Of a DNA stretch of 64,000 nucleotides, positions 945 through 41,230 are shown in pieces. The stretch comes from Methylocystis sp. (GTDB taxonomy: Bacteria > Pseudomonadota > Alphaproteobacteria > Rhizobiales > Beijerinckiaceae), in assembly GCA_022843405.1 (NCBI GenBank), contig JALHNQ010000009.1, positions 1 through 64,000 on the forward strand. The letters run 5' to 3'. A program made the position numbers and the translations under genes. A model generated the notes under the pieces. The model was not told the origin of the DNA, ran no database searches, and saw only the letters and a list, made by a program, of their open reading frames with translations. Numbering within the stretch: the stretch's first letter is position 1; each line of letters opens with the position of its first letter.

Positions 945-1586
945 ATGAAACACACAGACAGAAACAGCTTCGAAGGCGCCAATGGATATTCCCCCTCGGC
1001 CAACTGGATAACATTCTCCAAGAGGCGCGAACTCGTTAAGAGCTGGAGCAGTTACGTCGAGGAGCACGTGCGCGAGGGTTGGACCGCGTACCTTCTAACG
1101 TTTCAGTTCAGAGAAATTGGCGGTTCGGCGCAACACGTCGGCCGTGAGATGGAGAAAGAGCTTGAGCGCGTTTACGCGAAGCTCTTAACGCGAATTGTCC
1201 GAAGACCTCACTCATGGATGAATACGAACAGGCTTCCGAAATGGATCGCTTGCCCGGACTTTCCGGTGCGTAAATTAGAAAAAACGCCAGTCGGGGATTT
1301 CTGCGTGAATGGCGGGCGCCATATCCACGCAATATGCTTGATACCGCCGAAATCTCGGCTTGGAACGCCCTTGGATGAGCATTTTGAGGATAACGCGTCG
1401 CTCTATATCCGGCCGCGCCTGCCGCTCGTCCGCCTACATGCAAAGCCAATTACCGAGACGCCAGGCAACGCTACCGACTATGTGCTGACGGCGCTTAAGA
1501 GCGGCCGAGCGCTCAACGATGACGTCCTGGTCCTGCCGCGCTCGGCGGACGAAGTTTCCGAGCGCGGCAGGAATCCGCGTGGTTAA
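945..1586 (+). CDS. HUH-like replication/relaxase-type protein candidate
   Basis: The 213-residue protein starts at ATG 945 behind GGAG at 931-934. Three features in the right order recall single-tyrosine HUH nucleases: a hydrophobic strand (AYLLTFQF, residues 48-55), an H-hydrophobic-H motif (HIHAI, H126 and H128), and a late tyrosine helix (Y179 in DYVLTALKSGR). Such enzymes nick DNA to start rolling-circle replication or transfer. The motif match is direct, but the family assignment is inference because the spacing is not textbook and the protein is short. It lies in an island with an integrase and an AlpA-type regulator, where a replication initiator would fit. It could instead be an unrelated island protein. 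Confidence 0.5.
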   Translation: MKHTDRNSFEGANGYSPSANWITFSKRRELVKSWSSYVEEHVREGWTAYLLTFQFREIGGSAQHVGREMEKELERVYAKLLTRIVRRPHSWMNTNRLPKWIACPDFPVRKLEKTPVGDFCVNGGRHIHAICLIPPKSRLGTPLDEHFEDNASLYIRPRLPLVRLHAKPITETPGNATDYVLTALKSGRALNDDVLVLPRSADEVSERGRNPRG

Positions 1587-1605
1587 CACGCGCCTTTCGA
1601 TGCCA

Positions 1606-2424
1606 TTAAACCACCGGAGGCTTGATCCGCTTCACATCCAGAATTGAGATGTCGAACTTGGACCCCTTGCTTCCTTGCATCACTATGCTCAGATTAGCAT
1701 GTGCCCCCTTGGGAAGGCTGAAAAACTCCTCTCCCTGTTCGACGAGTTTTGCGCGGAGATCTACGAACGTAGAGCTCTTCGCGGTAGGCCCGTGCTTGAT
1801 CGCTTCACCTTCCGTCTTTTTGGGAGCGGTCAGCAGTTTCTTTGCAGGCGCCCCCCTGGTCGACTTGCTCTTCCGCGCTTTAGCATTTCGGCGCGCCAGA
1901 GCTTCAATTCCTCCTCCTTTTTTTAAGGCGGTCGGTATGTCTTTAGGTGCGACGCCACTTTCGACAAGCGGCTGAACGGCTCTGTACCATTTGCTAGCCC
2001 GCTTCGCGCCTCCCTTGTTCAAGCCAGAGATTCGAAGCAGCACGAAGCGTAGCGCCTGATCCGACTTCTGAGGATGAGGTTTTAGCGTACGTCCTTTCCA
2101 AACCTGGTGATCACAAAAGCTGGCCCATGCTTCCTCATGCAATTCGAGGAATGCGGCGACGGCGCATGCGCTCGCGATTATCCAGCGCTGCTCTTGCCGA
2201 TACCCATGAAGAGCCTCGAGGAGACTCTTCTGAAGTCGCACGATTTCCTTCTCGGCGCCCCGTTCCAAGTCCTCTTCACGCAGCGATGAAAGAAGGGTGG
2301 TCGATTTGAGTGCCTCCATTGGCTTCCGAACAGGAGCCCTATGCCCCGTCGCTTTAAGCGATTGCGCGCCCGGGAGTCTCGTTGCAGGTTTTGCGATTGA
2401 TCGATTGTGCGGAGGACGAATCAT
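1606..2424 (-). CDS. Hypothetical island protein
   Basis: This 272-residue protein has no family I recognise. The ATG at 2424 is chosen because it follows the stop of the alpA-like gene by four bases, as expected for a two-gene operon; an earlier in-frame start would run into that gene. The N-terminal third is basic and proline-rich. The middle (about residues 55-150) is helical with several Trp, and a lysine- and alanine-rich linker follows around residue 185. The C-terminal 50 residues look like a small beta-rich domain ending in KRIKPPVV. A DNA-associated role is possible from the basic linker and the partner gene, but nothing is diagnostic. Confidence 0.6.
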   Translation of the reverse strand: MIRPPHNRSIAKPATRLPGAQSLKATGHRAPVRKPMEALKSTTLLSSLREEDLERGAEKEIVRLQKSLLEALHGYRQEQRWIIASACAVAAFLELHEEAWASFCDHQVWKGRTLKPHPQKSDQALRFVLLRISGLNKGGAKRASKWYRAVQPLVESGVAPKDIPTALKKGGGIEALARRNAKARKSKSTRGAPAKKLLTAPKKTEGEAIKHGPTAKSSTFVDLRAKLVEQGEEFFSLPKGAHANLSIVMQGSKGSKFDISILDVKRIKPPVV

Positions 2425-2428
2425 TGGT

Positions 2429-2644
2429 TCAGCCCTCCCCGCGCGAGATTGTCGCGATGAGTGCTCGAATTTCTTCAACACGCCACGCGGACATTCTCGG
2501 GCCAAGCTTTATTGGCTTGGGGTATCGACCGGCCTTGATTCCCGCCCAGAACGCCGAGCGCGAAATCGGAAGGGGGCCTTTAGGGAGGATTATGTCCTTG
2601 AGTCGGACGAAGCCGCAGTTCGGAAAGCCGTCATTTTTTTCCAT
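2429..2644 (-). CDS. AlpA-family helix-turn-helix regulator
   Basis: A 71-residue protein with the layout of AlpA/excisionase-like regulators: an N-terminal strand (FVRLKDI), then a MerR-type helix-turn-helix (LPISRSAFWAGIKAGRYPKP), a wing (KLGPRMSAWRVEEI) and a short final helix. In P4-type islands AlpA proteins activate the integrase or act as the directionality factor for excision. It is directly upstream of the 1606-2424 gene and on the same strand as the integrase at 3844-5070, which fits control of this island. Specific target sites were not identified. Confidence 0.8.
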   Translation of the reverse strand: MEKNDGFPNCGFVRLKDIILPKGPLPISRSAFWAGIKAGRYPKPIKLGPRMSAWRVEEIRALIATISRGEG

Positions 2645-2795
2645 GTGTCACCTCTCTGTCGAGGCGACTTTTGTCCGGCCTGAGCCGAGGCAAATGAAAT
2701 ACGCAGCGAGGAAAATACCACGCTAGCCACAGTGGACGACAAGAACGATTCTGGCTCTTCGTGGCTAAAGTTGATCCTTTGCGTAAACTCGCAGA

Positions 2796-3884
2796 TCAGC
2801 CCCTTTCAGCTTCATCGGCTGTCAAAAGCTGCTTCTTGATCGCATTCAATTTGTCTTGCATTTTGCCCTTGGGCGGCTTCGTAGCCTCCATTCTGCCGAT
2901 CGCGTCCTTGAGGTGCTTGCGAAGAGTCCTTTCGCCAACGACAATCCCCGCCTTTCCAATGTTGGCGCAAAAAATAGAAACCTCGTCAGCGCCACCGGCC
3001 TTTGCTGCAACCCTGTTCTGCTCAGCCTTCGAATCAAGCAAGTAGTGATAAAGGAGAGCGCCCAACAGAGCATCGCCCAGCACTCGTAATGATTTCGGAT
3101 TTTCCTCCAGCCCCCGAGCGGCGCCATTAGTCGTAGGCGACATGAGCCGAGGATCGAATTGACCTATTTTTGTTTTCTTCGCCCATGCGATGTATTTTTT
3201 TCGCTCCGAGACACGGTCGAGCGCGCCGGCTTTGATCGCCCGTTCGATAACTTGCCTGCGCTCGAAATAGCGATCGACGAAATCAGATCCCTCAATGGCT
3301 CCTAAGGTCTTGTCATTTACCTTGCGAGGGTCTTTGTCGAACGACAAAGCGGCTGCTTCTTCCGCCGTCCAGTAATGCTGCTCTGACCAATATCCATAAT
3401 CAACTGCAGCCGAAGGACGGTTAAAAAACCTCAACCGGTCATATTTCTCGGAATCAGCTTTGCGTTCCTGTGCATCGCGTTCAATTTGTTCTCTGTAACG
3501 TCGGTCCAGCTCCTCCTTGTCCAAGGTGTCTAACTCGGTTTCGTAATCTCTAACCTTATCGATACAGGCGCTTGCATATTGGAGGTGCTCGCCGCTATTC
3601 TTGTCGAACTTTCTTGCACGAGCAATCATGCGTTCGTGGTAAGATGTAATCGCCTCCGTCCCGAGCCGAAATTGTCTCGCATATTTTGCCCAAAGTACCG
3701 AAATCGGCATTCTGTTCGGCTCGTCCTCTTCCACGCCGCGCAGGTGTATCCTAATGGCGCTTATCATGCCGGGCGGAAAGAACGTAAATCGGCGCTTTAA
3801 AAGGTAAGTTTTCTGTTGAAAGGACTCGAGCGAGGGCAACCCCTTAAGAGGCGGCAGGTGAAGACCGGTAGGAGAAATTCGCAT
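2796..3884 (-). CDS. Hypothetical island protein, coiled-coil region
   Basis: A 362-residue protein of unknown function. The ATG at 3884 has GGAG eight bases upstream and overlaps the 3' end of the integrase gene by 41 bases, so the two are probably co-transcribed. Residues 85-150 are highly charged and likely coiled coil (ELDTLDKEELDRRYREQIER). A segment with YGYWSEQHYWTAEEAAALS near residue 162 resembles the short domain often preceding helix-turn-helix regions in phage and island proteins. The C-terminus is basic (RTLRKHLKDAIGRMEATKPP). Its place next to integrase suggests a mobility or replication accessory role, which is inference only. Confidence 0.6.
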   Translation of the reverse strand: MRISPTGLHLPPLKGLPSLESFQQKTYLLKRRFTFFPPGMISAIRIHLRGVEEDEPNRMPISVLWAKYARQFRLGTEAITSYHERMIARARKFDKNSGEHLQYASACIDKVRDYETELDTLDKEELDRRYREQIERDAQERKADSEKYDRLRFFNRPSAAVDYGYWSEQHYWTAEEAAALSFDKDPRKVNDKTLGAIEGSDFVDRYFERRQVIERAIKAGALDRVSERKKYIAWAKKTKIGQFDPRLMSPTTNGAARGLEENPKSLRVLGDALLGALLYHYLLDSKAEQNRVAAKAGGADEVSIFCANIGKAGIVVGERTLRKHLKDAIGRMEATKPPKGKMQDKLNAIKKQLLTADEAERG

Positions 3885-5070
3885 GGTCTGCTCCGTGCAA
3901 ACAATATTCGTTCCAATCTTCCATCAGTGAGCGTCGTTTTTCAAATAGGTCCCCACGACGGTAAGCCGCTTCAACCTTATTGCCGACTATGTGGGCCAGA
4001 GCCATTTCGCATAATTCTCGCGAGTAGTTTGTGCATTCGGCGGCCCAGTCCCTGAATGAAGATCGAAAGCCGTGGACGGTGAAGGGCACGTCCATTCTCC
4101 GCAGCATCATATTAAAGGCCATGTTCGACATTGGACCAATAAACGTTCGACCCGGAAAAAGGTACTCACTCCCTGCGCCGAGCAGCTGGCTCCGTCCAAG
4201 AATTTCTAAGCACCGACTGCTCAGCGGCACTCGATGAGCTCTACCTGCTTTCATTCGATCGGCCGGTATCGTCCAAACTTGTCCAGATTCGTCGATCTCC
4301 CGCCATTTTGCGCCCAGCACCTCGCCTGTGCGCGTTGCGGTGAGGATCAGGAACTCCAGCGCCAGACGCGTAATTTCCCCCTGGTCGGCTGCGCCTTGCA
4401 GTCGCGCAACAAAGGCGGGAACCTTAGCAAATGGCATGGCGGCATGGTGCTCATTCCGATCGCGCTGCTTGGGTAGCCCCTTGGCGACTCCTTCGACGGG
4501 GTTGTCGCCAGTCCGATATCCGGCCGCCTTGGCCCAGCTCAATACCGTGCCAATCCGCTGTCGAACGCGGCGTGCGGTTTCTGGCTTCGACAGCCAGATC
4601 GGCGAGAGGACGCGTAGGACGTGGGGACTGTCGATCTCGTTGACCGGCATGTCGCCGATCGCTGGAAATGCATATTGCCGCAGCGTGTTCATCCATTGCA
4701 ATGCGTGCTTTGAGTTTTTCCAACTCGGCAGGTGCTCATCAAAGACTTTCTGGGCCGCCTCTCTGAACATCGGCGCTTTCGCCTCCGCCTGCCGCCGTTT
4801 GTCAGCAAGAGGATCGCCGCCCTCACGCGCGCGTTTCCGGTAGCTGAGCGCCTTTTCCCGCGCCTCGGCCAGCGAAACGAGGCTGGTTCCTCCGAGCCCA
4901 ATGTCACGCCGGCGACCCTGCACGACGGTTCGCAACATCCATCTCTTTGCGCCTGATGGATCGACGACCAGATAAAGGCCATTTCCATCAGCGTAACGGC
5001 CCGGTTCTTTCAAAGATCGAATCTTAAGCGCGGTCAGAGCCTTTTCTGGATGCTTCCCACGCTTTGGCAT
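3844..5070 (-). CDS. Tyrosine-type site-specific integrase, P4-like
   Basis: This 408-residue recombinase would integrate and excise the island. It has the N-terminal DUF4102-type arm-binding domain (DGNGLYLVVDPSGAKRW, about residues 28-44), a core-binding domain (about 100-190) and a catalytic domain with all the expected residues: R247 (TATRTGEVLGAKW), H333 and R336 (VHGFRSSFRDW), H360 (LAHIVGNKVEAAY) and the nucleophile Y370. The gene looks intact. ATG 5070 gives a family-like N-terminus (MPKRGK), although GGAGG is only two bases away; an in-frame GTG at 5091 is the alternative. No tRNA is present beside it in the window, so the attachment site is not obvious. Confidence 0.92.
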   Translation of the reverse strand: MPKRGKHPEKALTALKIRSLKEPGRYADGNGLYLVVDPSGAKRWMLRTVVQGRRRDIGLGGTSLVSLAEAREKALSYRKRAREGGDPLADKRRQAEAKAPMFREAAQKVFDEHLPSWKNSKHALQWMNTLRQYAFPAIGDMPVNEIDSPHVLRVLSPIWLSKPETARRVRQRIGTVLSWAKAAGYRTGDNPVEGVAKGLPKQRDRNEHHAAMPFAKVPAFVARLQGAADQGEITRLALEFLILTATRTGEVLGAKWREIDESGQVWTIPADRMKAGRAHRVPLSSRCLEILGRSQLLGAGSEYLFPGRTFIGPMSNMAFNMMLRRMDVPFTVHGFRSSFRDWAAECTNYSRELCEMALAHIVGNKVEAAYRRGDLFEKRRSLMEDWNEYCLHGADHANFSYRSSPAAS

Positions 5071-5452
5071 GCCTCCGCCCAATCCACACACCCCACATTT
5101 TTACCCACATCCTATTCCGGCTTTAATAGGACAGCAACAATCTTGACTGGACAACGATATATCCGTAAATTCAACCAAAGCAGATGCTTGTGAGATTAAC
5201 CTGGACTAGCCTGGAATATGGGGGTGGCGGACGCCCCCTCCGCCAGTCCTATCGTTGTCCAGTCTGAAGACATAGGTGACAGTCTGTTCCTAGGGCATGG
5301 TGACAACCTCGGGCTGAACGGCGGCTGCTGTCGCAAACGCATTGGCGAAGCGTACCGGCAAGCGCACCCGCGATTTTTGCGTCAGACGCGTGATTCTCCT
5401 GCCGCGTCGACGGGTTTCGTCCGAATAGTTGGCGGCATGGCGATCTGATCAA
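5071..5452. other. Integrase upstream region, candidate attachment/regulatory DNA
   Basis: No convincing gene is present. The stretch holds a CCTATT/AATAGG inverted repeat at 5111-5130 and the 15-base inverted pair listed separately. Downstream of that, the phrases ACATAGGTGACA (5270-5281) and CATGGTGACA recall the ends of IS481-type elements and may be a degenerate IS remnant. It is the natural place for the island's integrase promoter and attachment site, but no tRNA or direct repeat pair was found to prove it. Confidence 0.4.
5145..5264. repeat. Perfect 15-bp inverted repeat pair
   Basis: GACTGGACAACGATA at 5145-5159 is repeated in inverse orientation as TATCGTTGTCCAGTC at 5250-5264, with 90 bases between the arms. 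A perfect 15-base match in a short noncoding stretch is unlikely by chance. The arms could be recombinase or regulator binding sites for the adjacent integrase, or the ends of a small decayed insertion. Confidence 0.6.
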
Positions 5453-5782
5453 ATGAGCGAGTCTTTTAGCGACAATGAGCTGCGCTCGATGGCGTTCGAC
5501 TGGCTTCAAGAAGGACGAGGCGTCGCGATTGCGACCGTCATCGAAACTTGGGGCTCCGCGCCGCGCCGCTCTGGAAGTCATTTGATCGTCGATCAAGAAG
5601 GACATTTCGCCGGGTCCGTATCCGGCGGTTGTGTCGAGGCCGAAGTCATCGTCGCCGCAACGGAATGCATTGAAAGCGGCGCGCCAAAAATCCTCGAATT
5701 TGGCGTGGAAGATGAAACCGCCTGGCGCATCGGCCTACCCTGCGGCGGGCGCATCCGCGTCTATGTCGAAAAGGTCTCTTGA
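5453..5782 (+). CDS. XdhC/CoxI-type N-terminal domain protein
   Basis: A 109-residue protein corresponding to the N-terminal half of XdhC/CoxI proteins, which bind molybdenum cofactor, help sulfurate it and insert it into xanthine-oxidase-family enzymes. Family motifs are GSAPRRSGS (34-42), SVSGGCVE (55-62) and GLPCGG (94-99). The C-terminal Rossmann half is encoded separately by the next gene, whose ATG overlaps this stop as TGATG. The position facing the molybdenum hydroxylase operon makes that enzyme the likely client. Start 5453 gives MSESFSDN; an upstream in-frame Met at 5429 is less likely. Confidence 0.85.
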   Translation: MSESFSDNELRSMAFDWLQEGRGVAIATVIETWGSAPRRSGSHLIVDQEGHFAGSVSGGCVEAEVIVAATECIESGAPKILEFGVEDETAWRIGLPCGGRIRVYVEKVS

Positions 5783-6471
5783 TGCGGCGCGAACTTCTCG
5801 CGGCAATGAAATTTGAGACCGACGCGCGGCGCGCTTCCGTGCTTGTCACAGATGTTGCGGATGGGGCGCAATTTCTGCTGCTGGCGTCGTCGGAGCCGAA
5901 AAACTCGGTGGAGGTTGCTGCGCGACAGGCGCTTCTCGACGGCGAGAGCCGGATGGCGCTTGTCGAGGGGCGCGAATATTTTTTTACGGTGGCGTGGCCC
6001 GCGCCTCGGCTCGTCATTGTCGGAGCGTCCCATGTGAGCCAAGCGCTTGCGGCATTAAGCGTGACCGCCGGCTTCGATGTGGCGATCGTTGATCCGCGCA
6101 AGGCTTTCGCCTCCGAGCGCCGATTTCCAGGGGTCAATCTCGTCGCGCAATGGCCGCAGGACGCATTCAAACAGGCGCCCTTAGACCCGTTTTGCGCGGT
6201 TGCGCTGCTTGCTCATGTTCCCAGTATCGATGATCCGGCGCTCTTGGAGGCGCTCGACGCGGGCTGTTTCTATATCGGCGCGCTTGGCTCCAAGAAAACG
6301 CGCGACGCACGTATGAAGCGGCTAGCGGCCGCTGGTCGCCAGTCCGAGGCCGATCGGATTCACGCGCCTATTGGGCTTGATATCGGCGCGAGAACGCCGG
6401 CGGAGATTGCTGTCGCCATCCTTGCCGAGATTGTCAGCGTGATGCGCCGCGGAGGCGCGAGGCGCCGATGA
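5782..6471 (+). CDS. XdhC-type Rossmann domain protein
   Basis: A 229-residue protein matching the C-terminal (XdhC_C) half of the XdhC family. After about 70 N-terminal residues comes a Rossmann-type nucleotide-binding motif (LVIVGASHVSQALA, 77-90) and the family signature YIGALGSKKT near 164-173. With the preceding N-domain protein it would form a complete molybdenum cofactor chaperone split over two genes. ATG 5782 overlaps the upstream TGA, and the stop overlaps the start of the MocA-like gene (ATGA at 6468), so the three genes are translationally coupled. Confidence 0.85.
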   Translation: MRRELLAAMKFETDARRASVLVTDVADGAQFLLLASSEPKNSVEVAARQALLDGESRMALVEGREYFFTVAWPAPRLVIVGASHVSQALAALSVTAGFDVAIVDPRKAFASERRFPGVNLVAQWPQDAFKQAPLDPFCAVALLAHVPSIDDPALLEALDAGCFYIGALGSKKTRDARMKRLAAAGRQSEADRIHAPIGLDIGARTPAEIAVAILAEIVSVMRRGGARRR

Positions 6472-37058: not shown

Positions 37059-37160
37059 CGCGCGCTGCGAAAGCAGGAGTGAATATGATTGCGTGTTCAT
37101 AGCTAGAGGACAGGCGGCGAACGCAATTGTAACTTGATGGATACGGCTTCCGAATCGATT

Positions 37161-37166
37161 TATAAT
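37161..37166 (+). promoter_or_regulatory. Possible -10 box upstream of the 1254-residue gene
   Basis: A perfect TATAAT lies 47 bases before the ATG at 37213, in an AT-rich gap. A matching -35 element at the right distance is not evident; TTGATG at 37134-37139 is 21 bases away, longer than ideal. Confidence 0.35.
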
Positions 37167-37212
37167 TGCGAATGCTCATCAGCAAATTTGTGATGTTGAA
37201 CAAACGCGCCTC

Positions 37213-40200
37213 ATGAAGATTACCGCAACCCAACTCGAAAACTGGGCTGACACACGTGACGCACAGGGCATGCTACCGGTTCTTGTACGCCGACTGATTG
37301 CCGCTACCTCGACAACGACTGCATTAGCGATGCCCGGCGGCGAATCTGTTGGATTGCCCGGCTGGGATGGATTGATCGAGGTCGCTAAAGGAAATGCTTG
37401 GGTGCCGGACGGCCGATCGTATTGGGAACTCGGGTGCTCAGGTGACGTTTTCAAAAAAGCGAGAGGGGATTTCGCTAAGCGCTCATTGGAGATCAACCCA
37501 GAGACCGCTGCAATGGGCGTATTCGTATTTGTTTCGCCTAGGCGATGGCGCGGAAAGGCCGCATGGGTCAAGGAGGCTTCAGATCAAAAGAACTGGAAGC
37601 AAGTTATAGCACTTGACGCTGATGATCTGGAGATTTGGCTGGAAAATGCGCCGGCCGTTGCGCTTTGGTTTGGCGAACAAATAGGGCTCAGCGGGGTTGG
37701 GATTGAGTCTGTCGCGAGGTACTGGGAAAATTGGCGCACACAAACGCAAATTCAATTGACAAGCACCGCGCTCGAAACGGGACGCGAACAGGCAAAAAGC
37801 GGCCTCGGCGACGTTTTGGCAAAATCGCCGCCGTTGATTGGCATTGAGGCGGACAGCAGCGAAGAAGCGGTCGCTTTTACATGTTCTATGTTGCTGGAAC
37901 TGGGCTATGCCGACCGTGCCTGTTGCGTAACCTCTGATGAGGGATGGCGGTTTGTGGACGCCAACCCGAACTTGCGAATCGGAGTCGCGCTCAGTCCCGA
38001 TATTGCCGCTCGACGGTCCCCTAAGGAGGGGTTCGCGCTTGTCGTGCCGCTGAGCGCTGGCGACCGCCCTGCACAACTGCTCGGGACCGCCGCTCGTGCG
38101 GCGCAGGAGGAGCGCATTGTACTAGAACGCCCCCGAGCGGAGCACTTTGAGAAAAGCCTAATAACGCTCGGAGAGGAACAAGCAGATGCGGCGCGAATGG
38201 TTCGAGCGGTAGGTCGCTCGTGGTCTGTTTATAGACGCTTGCGCGCGAAGAACCCGCTCATCCGGCGGCCGACGTGGCTGAACGAGACGTTCCGGAAATC
38301 GCTTGTCACGGTTACGCTCGTCGGCGCTTGGAGCAGTGACAAAGGAGGAGATCGCTCATGTATCGAGGCGGTTTCAGGCCGAGCCTACTCCGAAATAGAA
38401 GCAGACCTCCGACAACTCGCGCGACACGACGATCCACCAATTCTCCAGATCGGGTCCGTGTGGAAGGCAAAGGCTCCGATCGAACTCCTTCACCTTCTCG
38501 GGCCGGAAATCACGCGGGAAGAGCTAACGCGTCTCCTTTCTGTTGCGGAGAATATTCTGGTTAAACCTGATCCTGCATTGGAGCTGGAAGACGAAAAGCG
38601 ATGGATGGCCGCTGTGTATGGAAAGGTTCGTGAGGAATCGGGTCTGGTGATCAGCTCCATTGTAGACTCACTTGCAAAGCTCAGCGTCTACGCCGAACGC
38701 ACAGCAGATCCGCAAGCCGGAGCTATCAAAGCCGGAATAGACGGGCTTGTCCGCTTGCTGCTCAACAACGCCGACGAACAACGCTGGCTTTCACTTAGCG
38801 GCGTCCTGCGAGAGTTAGCAGAAGCATCGCCTGACGAATTCTTGCGAGCGGTGGAGGCAAACCTCGAACTCCCATCTGCTCCAGTCCGCGCTCTACTGAC
38901 CGAAACAGCTGACAGCGGATTATTTGGTGGTCGCTGCTGGCATGCCCATCTGCTGTGGGCATTGGAGCTACTCGCGTGGTCGCCGGCTCGGCTCGCGCGC
39001 GTGGCCGATATTTTGGCGCGACTGAGTTCGACGCAGATCAAGGGAAACTGGGGAAACTCGCCGACTAACACTTTACATTCGCTTTTTCGCGTTTGGTGGC
39101 CACAAACCGCCGCCACGGTTGATCAGCGAATCGCGGTGCTGGATCGACTGATTCGGACGCACAATGATGTCGCCTGGAATCTAATGTATTCAATGGTTTC
39201 TGAACGATGCTATGCCGTCGCGAACGCAAAGCCGAATTGGCGGGATGATGACTCCGGGACACGCGACCGTCCGAATGACGGCGACCTTGGAAGGGCGCAA
39301 GAAAAAATTGGACGCAGACTCATCACGCAGGCGCGCCAAAACCCCAGTCGTATTGCTCAGCTAGTCGGTTCCTTGGATCGCTTCGGTGGTGAGTTCCTTG
39401 CCGAAATATTGCGGCTTGTCGATGAGTCCAAGAGTCTTGACGACGACGGTCGTGAAATTGTCCGCGACAGTGTTCGTCGATACCTCAACTGGCATAATTC
39501 ATTTAATCGAGACGGAGACAAAAAATCGCGGACGGCTGCGGACACGCTGCGTCCGTATTTCGATGCGCTCAGTCCAGTCGATCTCATCAAGAAGCATCGG
39601 TGGCTGTTCGAGAATCCGTGGACGCCGCTGCCAGACGGGCGCGCGGAGGACTTCCAAGCTGAAGACCGAACGCGCGAGCAGCTTCGCGCTGCTGCAATTC
39701 AAGAAATACTGGAAAACCGCTGTCTCAGGGGAATCGCCGATCTAGCTGAGGCGAGTCAGGACCAAAGGCTAGTCGGGCATCAATTCGCTAAGAGCAACAC
39801 TTCGAACGACAGCATTGCTCCTTGGCTCGCGGAGCAGTTCGTTAAAGGAGCCGCGAAGTCACATGTTCCCTTAGTCAGCGGTTTCCTTTCCGCTTTATCC
39901 GTCGAAAATCGAACCGATCTCTTGAACGAGATCATCGCTGATCCTGCCGAAAGCATCGGCGGAGCAGAAAAAATCGCGCCGCTGTTGGCCAACGCCCCGT
40001 TTGACCGCGATACATGGGCAATTGTCGAGCAAGCAGCTGAGGCAATAGGCGAGTTATATTGGAAGGGAGTGCACCCCAACTACGTTCACGGCGACTCCAA
40101 CGATTTGAAGTATGTTCTAACAAAACTGTTAGCGGCAAAACGCCCCCGCACAGCATTTCAGGCTATGTCGCTTGATTATAAAGATGTCGAAGCAGAAACG

Positions 40201-40977
40201 CTTGTTACGATCCTCGAAAAAATCCGTTCGGGTGAAGAAGATGATGGACCGCTTCCAGATGGATGGCACATTGGGGAGGCGTTAAATCAAGCAGCAATGT
40301 CGCAAGACATACCTCGCCGGCGACTGGCGCTCTTGCAGTTTGCCTTTTTTCCGGCCGTTGAGCATGGGGAACACGGAGCCAAATTTCTGTATGACGAAAT
40401 TGCAGATGATCCTGCGCTATTCGTTGAATTGGTTTGTCTCGTTTATAGACGAAGGAATGGGGGAGATGATGAGGAAGAGGCAAATACGACGGCAGCGGAA
40501 TTGGCGTATCATGTATTGCATGACGGTCGCGTAACGCCGGGCGCAAAGGACAATGGTGTTGTCGACGAAGCTGCATTCAGAAAATGGATTGATCACGTTC
40601 GAAGTGGGGCGCGTGAAAATGACCGTCTTGAAGTCGCGGAAACGATAATCGGGCAATGGCTTTCGCGTTGCCCCAGCGACGCAGATGGAAGCTGGCCATG
40701 CGCGCCCGTTCGAGATTTTCTGGACGAAGCCGACTCAAGTCGAATTCGAGAAGGGTTCGCCACGGGCGTCTTAAACAATCGTGGCATAACAAGCTGCGGA
40801 ATGACCGACGGTGGCGAACAGGAGCGTGTGCTCGCAGAAAAGTATCGAGACCTAGCAAAGCGGATACAAGAGTCGCATCCACGCGTTGCCGAAACCATCA
40901 CACAAATTGAAAAGCATTATGAAAGGCACGCCCAAAGAGAAGACTGGGAAGCTCAGCTTCGAATCGAAGGCCACTAA
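37213..40977 (+). CDS. 1254-residue putative anti-phage protein: nuclease-like N-terminus, NTPase-like middle, helical C-terminus
   Basis: I do not recognise a named family. Residues 45-92 have the pattern of a PD-(D/E)XK-like nuclease: GLPGWDGLIEV with D52, WVPDGRSYWELG with E72, then KKARGDFAKR with K81/K82, followed by FVFVSPRRWRGKAAW and a Trp-rich end of the domain near 155. Residues 205-330 resemble a STAND/AAA-like segment, but the P-loop place reads IGIEADSSEEA, so Walker A is missing. A winged-helix-like part (345-520, LVGAWSSDKGGDRSCIEAV) and a long helical repeat region follow. The architecture is like sensor proteins of bacterial immunity. It is low in GC, lies alone, and has weak translation signals. 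Function is inference. Confidence 0.6.
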   Translation: MKITATQLENWADTRDAQGMLPVLVRRLIAATSTTTALAMPGGESVGLPGWDGLIEVAKGNAWVPDGRSYWELGCSGDVFKKARGDFAKRSLEINPETAAMGVFVFVSPRRWRGKAAWVKEASDQKNWKQVIALDADDLEIWLENAPAVALWFGEQIGLSGVGIESVARYWENWRTQTQIQLTSTALETGREQAKSGLGDVLAKSPPLIGIEADSSEEAVAFTCSMLLELGYADRACCVTSDEGWRFVDANPNLRIGVALSPDIAARRSPKEGFALVVPLSAGDRPAQLLGTAARAAQEERIVLERPRAEHFEKSLITLGEEQADAARMVRAVGRSWSVYRRLRAKNPLIRRPTWLNETFRKSLVTVTLVGAWSSDKGGDRSCIEAVSGRAYSEIEADLRQLARHDDPPILQIGSVWKAKAPIELLHLLGPEITREELTRLLSVAENILVKPDPALELEDEKRWMAAVYGKVREESGLVISSIVDSLAKLSVYAERTADPQAGAIKAGIDGLVRLLLNNADEQRWLSLSGVLRELAEASPDEFLRAVEANLELPSAPVRALLTETADSGLFGGRCWHAHLLWALELLAWSPARLARVADILARLSSTQIKGNWGNSPTNTLHSLFRVWWPQTAATVDQRIAVLDRLIRTHNDVAWNLMYSMVSERCYAVANAKPNWRDDDSGTRDRPNDGDLGRAQEKIGRRLITQARQNPSRIAQLVGSLDRFGGEFLAEILRLVDESKSLDDDGREIVRDSVRRYLNWHNSFNRDGDKKSRTAADTLRPYFDALSPVDLIKKHRWLFENPWTPLPDGRAEDFQAEDRTREQLRAAAIQEILENRCLRGIADLAEASQDQRLVGHQFAKSNTSNDSIAPWLAEQFVKGAAKSHVPLVSGFLSALSVENRTDLLNEIIADPAESIGGAEKIAPLLANAPFDRDTWAIVEQAAEAIGELYWKGVHPNYVHGDSNDLKYVLTKLLAAKRPRTAFQAMSLDYKDVEAETLVTILEKIRSGEEDDGPLPDGWHIGEALNQAAMSQDIPRRRLALLQFAFFPAVEHGEHGAKFLYDEIADDPALFVELVCLVYRRRNGGDDEEEANTTAAELAYHVLHDGRVTPGAKDNGVVDEAAFRKWIDHVRSGARENDRLEVAETIIGQWLSRCPSDADGSWPCAPVRDFLDEADSSRIREGFATGVLNNRGITSCGMTDGGEQERVLAEKYRDLAKRIQESHPRVAETITQIEKHYERHAQREDWEAQLRIEGH

Positions 40978-41036
40978 AGAGATTTAAGTCAATTCCCTTC
41001 CGAGAGATATGAACGGCGTTCTGATCGAGCCGACAC

Positions 41037-41230
41037 TCACAGCCTCCACAGCCCCAGCGCGATCGTCGCCAGCGTCAGCGGCGCGCCGACCTTGAAACAG
41101 GTCCAGAAGCCTATTCTCACGCCAAGCGCTCGCCGCCCGCTCGACGACGATGAGATTGGCGATCGAGCCAACATGGGTGAAATTGCCGGCGAGCGTCGAG
41201 GCCCTGGCGACGCGCGCGGCGCTCCCGCCA
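41037..41230 (-). pseudogene. Remnant of an ArsB/SLC13-type anion permease C-terminus
   Basis: In one minus frame the text STLAGNFTHVGSIANLIVVE appears, followed after a frameshift near 41125 by GVRIGFWTCFKVGAPLTLAT and a stop at 41037. Together these match the last two membrane segments of ArsB/NhaD/SLC13 transporters. No upstream part of the gene remains; it is broken just where the foreign 1254-residue gene lies, so its loss may be linked to that insertion. Confidence 0.75.

Follow-up and report, generated by a model that had tools for sequence, protein, structure and literature searches.

A candidate single-gene anti-phage protein with a nuclease-like domain, a degenerate NTPase and an alpha-solenoid in Methylocystis sp.

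Abstract

A 64,000-nucleotide stretch of Methylocystis sp. (GCA_022843405.1, contig JALHNQ010000009.1, positions 1 to 64,000 of the forward strand; hereafter the window) encodes a solitary 1254-residue protein on an inserted DNA segment. The protein joins a probable PD-(D/E)xK-like nuclease domain, a degenerate NTPase, a winged-helix-like segment and a helical solenoid. Catalytic-type residues are conserved, and the P-loop is missing in all 30 aligned family members. On balance, the gene is best explained as a horizontally acquired single-gene anti-phage nuclease sensor from a PD-lambda-4_A/Avs-like STAND lineage whose ATP switch was lost.

Genomic locus

The open reading frame (ORF) is intact and forms one gene. 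The coordinates, length and single-gene status given in the original prediction, which was made from the sequence without database searches, were re-derived and hold. The ATG at 37213 is the earliest start codon in frame, and the frame opens 25 codons before it. GC content is 55.1% in the ORF and 54.6% in the 3974-bp insert that carries it. Seven neighbouring genes have a GC at third codon positions (GC3) of 0.74-0.89, whereas that of the ORF is only 0.54, in agreement with the lower GC noted originally. The dinucleotide distance of the insert from the window mean exceeds that of all 301 overlapping equal-size stretches, narrowly (0.218 vs 0.215).

The S24 gene downstream is present in 37/39 same-genus genomes, and surrounding regions were taken from 11 of the best. 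The insertion is missing in all nine regions having both flanks. These flanks meet within 0 to ~95 bases in eight regions and are separated by 2.2 kb of other genes in the ninth (L114). Regions L107 and L108 matched the right-hand flank only and are uninformative on the insertion. The 3974-bp insert was horizontally acquired. Pfam-matched neighbours are a Na+/H+ antiporter upstream and an S24 peptidase and a MauG-type peroxidase downstream; seven of the ten window ORFs scanned belong to housekeeping families and three have no match. The gene stands alone, as had been proposed. Features are listed in Table 1.

Table 1. Positions of the gene, its insertion and its predicted domains in the window
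Feature	Positions	Strand	Residues	Basis
Insertion, 3974 bp, missing in same-genus regions	37062..41035	.		Edges fixed to within few bases
Gene for 1254-aa nuclease / dead-NTPase / alpha-solenoid protein	37213..40977	+		Open frame; homologues of full length on plasmids and in genomes
PD-(D/E)xK-like nuclease domain (probable)	37261..37683	+	~17-157	AlphaFold topology, alignment
Degenerate STAND-type NTPase remnant	37786..38247	+	~192-345	AlphaFold, Foldseek, hhalign to P-loop-bearing relatives
Winged-helix-like segment	38284..38469	+	~358-419	Helix-strand-helix-helix-strand-strand (H-E-H-H-E-E) pattern in both models
HEAT-like alpha-solenoid, presumed sensor	38476..40974	+	~422-1254	AlphaFold, fold matches, BLASTP

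Domain architecture

The window protein was aligned with 29 full-length homologues (24-41% identity to it) after removal of helix-turn-helix (HTH) parts; L005 was excluded, its match being spread over two frames. Residues 1-520 were modelled with AlphaFold from 11 sequences, with a mean predicted local distance difference test (pLDDT) of 89 and a predicted template modelling (pTM) score of 0.85. The N-terminal elements follow the order alpha-beta-beta-beta-alpha-beta (helix 17-32, strands 35-39, 53-57 and 67-73, helix 79-93, strand 103-107), which is the PD-(D/E)xK core pattern. Model confidence is low for residues 43-50. D52 lies just before strand 2, E72 on strand 3 and K82 on the following helix. 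The original prediction had proposed a D52...E72...K81/82 signature; D52, E72 and K82, together with D86, are invariant in 30/30 aligned proteins, and K81 varies. The predicted topology and the placement of D52 and E72 make a PD-(D/E)xK-like nuclease probable.

Residues 208 to 281 form an alternating strand-helix segment in the model, and IGIEADSSEEA (residues 209-219) occupies the position of the relatives' P-loop. GxxxxGK[ST] is found at the expected Walker A site in 0/30 aligned proteins, and rows there resemble IxADSxEEAxAF. The replacement of Walker A noted originally is thus a feature of the whole family and not a local loss. The strand at the expected Walker B position has no conserved acid in the 30 proteins. 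STAND proteins carry a G-x-P motif at a segment that in this family resembles SGRSLTVLRR. A separate regular-expression count of GxxxxGK[ST] covered 30 ORFs, with L005 in and the window locus out. One P-loop-like string, GQRWPGKT in L014, was discounted; it lies outside the Walker A columns, where L014 has ISQPLIVVADSTAEALAFLS.

Foldseek of the modelled residues 1-520 gave Avs5 (9nc9, E 7.8e-6) and phage-portal-bound Avs4 (8dgf, E 6.8e-5) as the best PDB matches. Six PDB chains matched at E <= 0.001: four Avs5/Avs4 chains, then two NSF chains. A search of viral predicted structures returned mainly AAA+ and clamp-loader proteins. PADLOC and PDB sequence searches gave no sequence-level match of the window protein to an Avs model or chain. 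Like the AVAST STAND receptors Avs4 and Avs5, the protein combines an N-terminal effector with a core of NTPase type and an array of helices at the C-terminus; its family differs from them in lacking Walker A and a conserved Walker B acid. Structure prediction and profile comparison support the originally proposed layout of nuclease, degenerate NTPase, winged helix and helical repeats, with a nuclease-like fold and NTPase remnant in residues 1-520 and kinship of Avs type.

The predicted winged helix comprises H358-370, E372-374, H378-388, H392-403, E410-413 and E416-419, where such a part had been expected. AlphaFold of residues 345-1254 from 15 sequences (pLDDT 85, pTM 0.62) predicts a helical alpha-solenoid, matching the roughly 700 residues of helical repeats foreseen. 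The best solenoid fold matches are karyopherins (CRM1, importins) and CAND1, with template modelling (TM) scores by query length of 0.11-0.27 among the 50 matches listed. These matches indicate the fold class only.

Family and related proteins

The genome has one copy of the gene. Among relatives, 3/101 genomes matched, its own included, and no other from the same genus. Matches were found in 14/385 genomes of the class sample and 13/398 of the phylum sample; in both counts the genome of the window itself is included, as are some matches that are partial. In plasmids, 23 records matched, 18 of them at >=80% cover, and 12 of the 23 are conjugative. One phage record matched, partially. Scans with the single window protein gave one locus in genome contigs and no match in viral contigs; the alignment found 14 loci in viral contigs, 7 to 8 of which have no window-type N-terminus.

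Pfam, NCBIfam and PDB sequence searches with the window protein returned nothing usable. A Pfam DUF4167 match fell below cut-off, and NFACT-C was set aside after matching only 1/30 family members. The function-unknown family phrog_18693 matches the whole protein (E 5.4e-144; residues 3-1248 aligned to positions 4-1250 of the 1258-position model). Among the literature matches listed for dead-NTPase immune proteins, none concerns this family by title and start of abstract. The description of the protein as undescribed therefore stands in part: phrog_18693 carries no function, but the family is already catalogued and shares homology with PD-lambda-4_A-like proteins and with a protein beside GapS6a.

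PD-lambda-4 is listed with a P-loop NTPase domain, and credited to Vassallo et al. 2022, in a review table (PMC10952713); its name has no word match in the main text of the Vassallo paper (PMC9519451). The PADLOC PD-Lambda-4_A model detects 13/30 family members at E <= 0.01 (best 4.4e-11). Comparison by hhalign of the 30-member alignment with a template profile of five PD-lambda-4_A-like sequences only gave E 4.8e-25 over residues 2-1083, indicating homology along the chain. Residues 1-345 alone gave E 5.5e-12, and the reversed family alignment, used as a control, gave E 0.18. The template proteins match PADLOC PD-Lambda-4_A at 144-370 bits. GxxxxGK[ST] occurs in four of the five, namely L121, L120, the second gene of L041, and L116, all good matches to that model; the fifth (L047) is N-terminally incomplete. 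Length class and domain order are common to PD-lambda-4 component A and the window family. The PD-lambda-4_A-like proteins examined have both a classical Q-x-K and a P-loop (GASGLGKS, GLSGLGKT), whereas the window family has neither; the window gene also differs from PD-lambda-4 in being solitary. By Pfam, the genes beside it, where PD-lambda-4 would have its second component (B), encode the antiporter, the S24 peptidase and the MauG-type peroxidase.

Members without a working NTPase motif also occur in tandem with an intact-P-loop PD-lambda-4_A-like gene on Rhizobium plasmids (L041:9656-17683; L116:8716-16676). In R. leguminosarum (L041), the family member comes first and a gap of 63 bp separates it from the PD-lambda-4_A-like gene, whose product has GASGLGKS. 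The genes are arranged alike in R. gallicum (L116), where their annotations lie 398 bp apart. Both kinds also sit close together in a third plasmid record.

Outward searches from the solenoid reached E. coli proteins of 1180 aa and 930 aa. The 930-aa protein directly follows a gene that NCBI calls GapS6a (L069, L070; NCBIfam NF047935 antiphage_GapS6a, E 3.4e-40). Its identity to window residues 357-1254 is 24% (BLASTP E 4e-68). GAPS6 is taken to be an anti-phage system, as its NCBIfam name implies. Its large partner, the 930-aa protein, has the solenoid in common with the window protein but lacks both the nuclease and the NTPase part. GapS6a is not found directly upstream of the window gene, where the antiporter lies. 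GapS6a (L069:11081-11401) matches Pfam HetE-N, the N-terminal domain of Het-E, a fungal protein of NLR type.

The E. coli 1180-aa protein (L060:3890-7429; L068:12001-15543) adjoins prophage genes and is annotated as hypothetical. It has the same solenoid as the window protein, fused to another kind of nuclease-like N-terminus (GGGxxFE...TDD...QxK), and its length is insufficient for an NTPase domain. It was found at >=80% cover in 7/5426 E. coli genomes. PADLOC gave no match for this form or for two short forms (L045, L065).

A solenoid tree that took in 23 of the 30 window-type rows was rooted on the five PD-lambda-4_A-like proteins. The 930-aa and the 1180-aa proteins branch from within the window-type group, beside L007 and L030 (branch 100), and window-type monophyly was rejected (p-AU, approximately unbiased test, 0.0002), in a tree made by a quick method with 10/32 inner branches open, long branches flagged and seven rows departing from model composition.

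HTH domains are fused N-terminally in 18/30 rows: a HigA-like clade (7 rows), a second Xre-type clade (10 rows) and a MerR-type row. The remaining 12 rows, including that of the window protein, lack an HTH, and the HTH states need three changes on the tree. The kind was assessed with Pfam for three rows, one of each, and by eye for the rest. The three kinds (HigA-like, Xre type, MerR-like) are represented by the N-termini of L002, L003 and L043 and their surrounding clades. The fused HTHs are probably autoregulatory. An upstream start with a fused HTH in the window gene was rejected because the frame has no room for it. A recent HTH loss in the window was also rejected, as the whole clade of four (window, L001, L025, L026) is without HTH.

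Defence genes near homologues were tallied in flanks of 8 to 10 kb around 14 annotated plasmid copies, with reverse transcriptases and toxin-antitoxin genes uncounted; unannotated copies L004, L038 and L042 and matches H10, H19 and H21-H23 were left out. The defence association considered in the original prediction appears around some copies only. An annotated defence gene lies near seven (L003, L005, L006, L040, L116, L117, L119), including AbiEi/AbiEii, SIR2 and Abi proteins, restriction systems and a Shedu domain. The gene adjoining an eighth copy, L041, matches PD-Lambda-4_A by PADLOC. Six copies (L002, L007, L039, L043, L044, L118) have none by annotation; some hold toxin-antitoxin or ImmA/IrrE genes. 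Four 50-kb control stretches from four of the same plasmids contain no defence gene by annotation; L123 has a reverse transcriptase near transposases, and L124 an endonuclease and an adenine methyltransferase. In Adhaeribacter (L044:8904-13765), a gene with a PDDEXK nuclease domain stops 11 bp before the family member, which suggests an operon of the two.

Proposed mechanism and alternatives

A defence role of the window protein is likely. The C-terminal alpha-solenoid would recognise a product or consequence of infection. Binding, relayed by the winged helix and NTPase remnant, would alter the protein's shape or oligomeric state. This change would free the N-terminal PD-(D/E)xK-type nuclease to cut the DNA of the phage or, in abortive infection, that of the host cell. 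In the usual view, STAND/NLR receptors require nucleotide for switching on. The lineage would descend from a PD-lambda-4_A/Avs-like STAND receptor, and with the P-loop lost, switching is proposed to be ATP-independent. For this copy, we infer a defence function, a trigger of the kind described, DNA as substrate and independence from ATP.

The distribution of forms may reflect a STAND-type lineage that dropped its ATP switch once and stayed functional, giving dead-NTPase proteins and then the NTPase-free GapS6a-adjacent and E. coli forms, in which the solenoid alone would control different effectors; the chances of this whole series are evenly poised. A widespread family with nuclease-type residues and a sensor, and no P-loop in 30 aligned proteins, would suggest that the ATP step is dispensable. 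The series also joins PD-lambda-4_A, the partner of GapS6a and the E. coli protein of 1180 aa, which has no name, in an order that can be tested stepwise. DSR2 is a Sir2 effector on a HEAT-repeat helical sensor without an NTPase and serves as a precedent for such a layout. The likeness is one of layout, an effector on a helical sensor without a working NTPase; DSR2 is an NADase, whereas the window protein is nuclease-like. DSR2 is reportedly triggered by a phage tail-tube protein (PMC11087589, PMC11263360).

Several observations weigh against a single-gene anti-phage sensor. The strongest comes from Avs5, in which Walker A residues Gly362 and Lys363 are described as required for immunity (PMC12931631); by analogy, loss of the P-loop could mean that function was lost or that a partner is needed. 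K82 lies on the helix after strand 3 and does not form a classical E-x-K. The PADLOC PD-Lambda-4_A model (PDLC03991) scores the window protein weakly (17.1 bits, E 2.1e-4) and covers only residues 580-651 on model positions 596-667, not the full length. Avs TM-scores are low (0.30-0.32 by query length) and many of the weaker fold matches are to the broader AAA+ class, NSF and clamp loaders for example, so the fold evidence favours the STAND/AAA+ class more than Avs. Among the ten ORFs scanned, Pfam reveals no defence island around the window gene. The neighbourhood tally used annotation words judged by eye, and its controls were scored by annotation only. All four control plasmids came from copies with a defence neighbour, and the plasmid copies are not independent cases because several are from close Rhizobiaceae.

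The alternative that survives best is a restriction-like nuclease that directly senses foreign DNA, from plasmids or phages, and reads it through the winged helix and, in relatives, the HTHs. The nuclease-like fold, the winged-helix segment and the HTH extensions of 18/30 members would suit it. It is nevertheless unlikely: the fused HTHs (Xre/HigA-like or MerR-like) are read as autoregulators, depend on clade and are missing from the window's clade, and the solenoid is common to the GapS6a-adjacent protein, which has no nuclease part.

It is also improbable, and ranked next, that the protein is half of a pair, a dead-NTPase sensor or scaffold that requires a relative with an active NTPase, in the manner of plant NLR pairs. 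Such pairing would account for the tandem genes of L041 and L116 and for the third record with both close together. However, the window copy is solitary, the PD-Lambda-4_A profile finds only the window locus in its genome at E <= 0.001, and only 3/23 family plasmid records are also among the matches of the PD-lambda-4_A-like protein.

A toxin-antitoxin-like or plasmid-addiction protein, with the HTH or HigA-like part as antitoxin and the nuclease as toxin, is very unlikely. Three kinds of HTH occur, all of them fused, and 12/30 members lack one; the window copy is solitary, among housekeeping neighbours and without HTH; against this stand a Shewanella HigA-like N-terminus annotated 'HigA family addiction module antitoxin' and the 12/23 conjugative plasmid records. 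A decayed, non-functional remnant is hardly credible, since the 1254-codon frame is intact, the protein keeps all 33 invariant columns of the 30-protein alignment and the P-loop is missing in all 30 members, which remain full length, even though Walker A is lost and the other same-genus genomes searched have no match. A single-gene anti-phage nuclease sensor remains the preferred explanation.

Additional observations

The TATAAT in the gap before the gene, noted originally, has a promoter-like partner (TGGATA-17-TATAAT at 37138-37166). The stretch has two such sites, against 1.7 in shuffles, so the pair carries no weight and a promoter was not accepted there. A membrane permease gene remnant adjoins the insertion (41036-41211); ~1.27 kb of this gene, present in siblings L105 and L106, is missing in the window. 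At the same insertion site, L114:8266-10430 carries a different pair of ORFs, of 348 and 314 aa, both of which contain the Rx4H motif known from HEPN proteins. The site between the antiporter and permease genes is possibly a small cargo hotspot. The runner-up in dinucleotide distance is the stretch near 1601 of the window (0.215), and window positions 1201-5800 form a second region with an odd dinucleotide make-up and low GC (53-58%).

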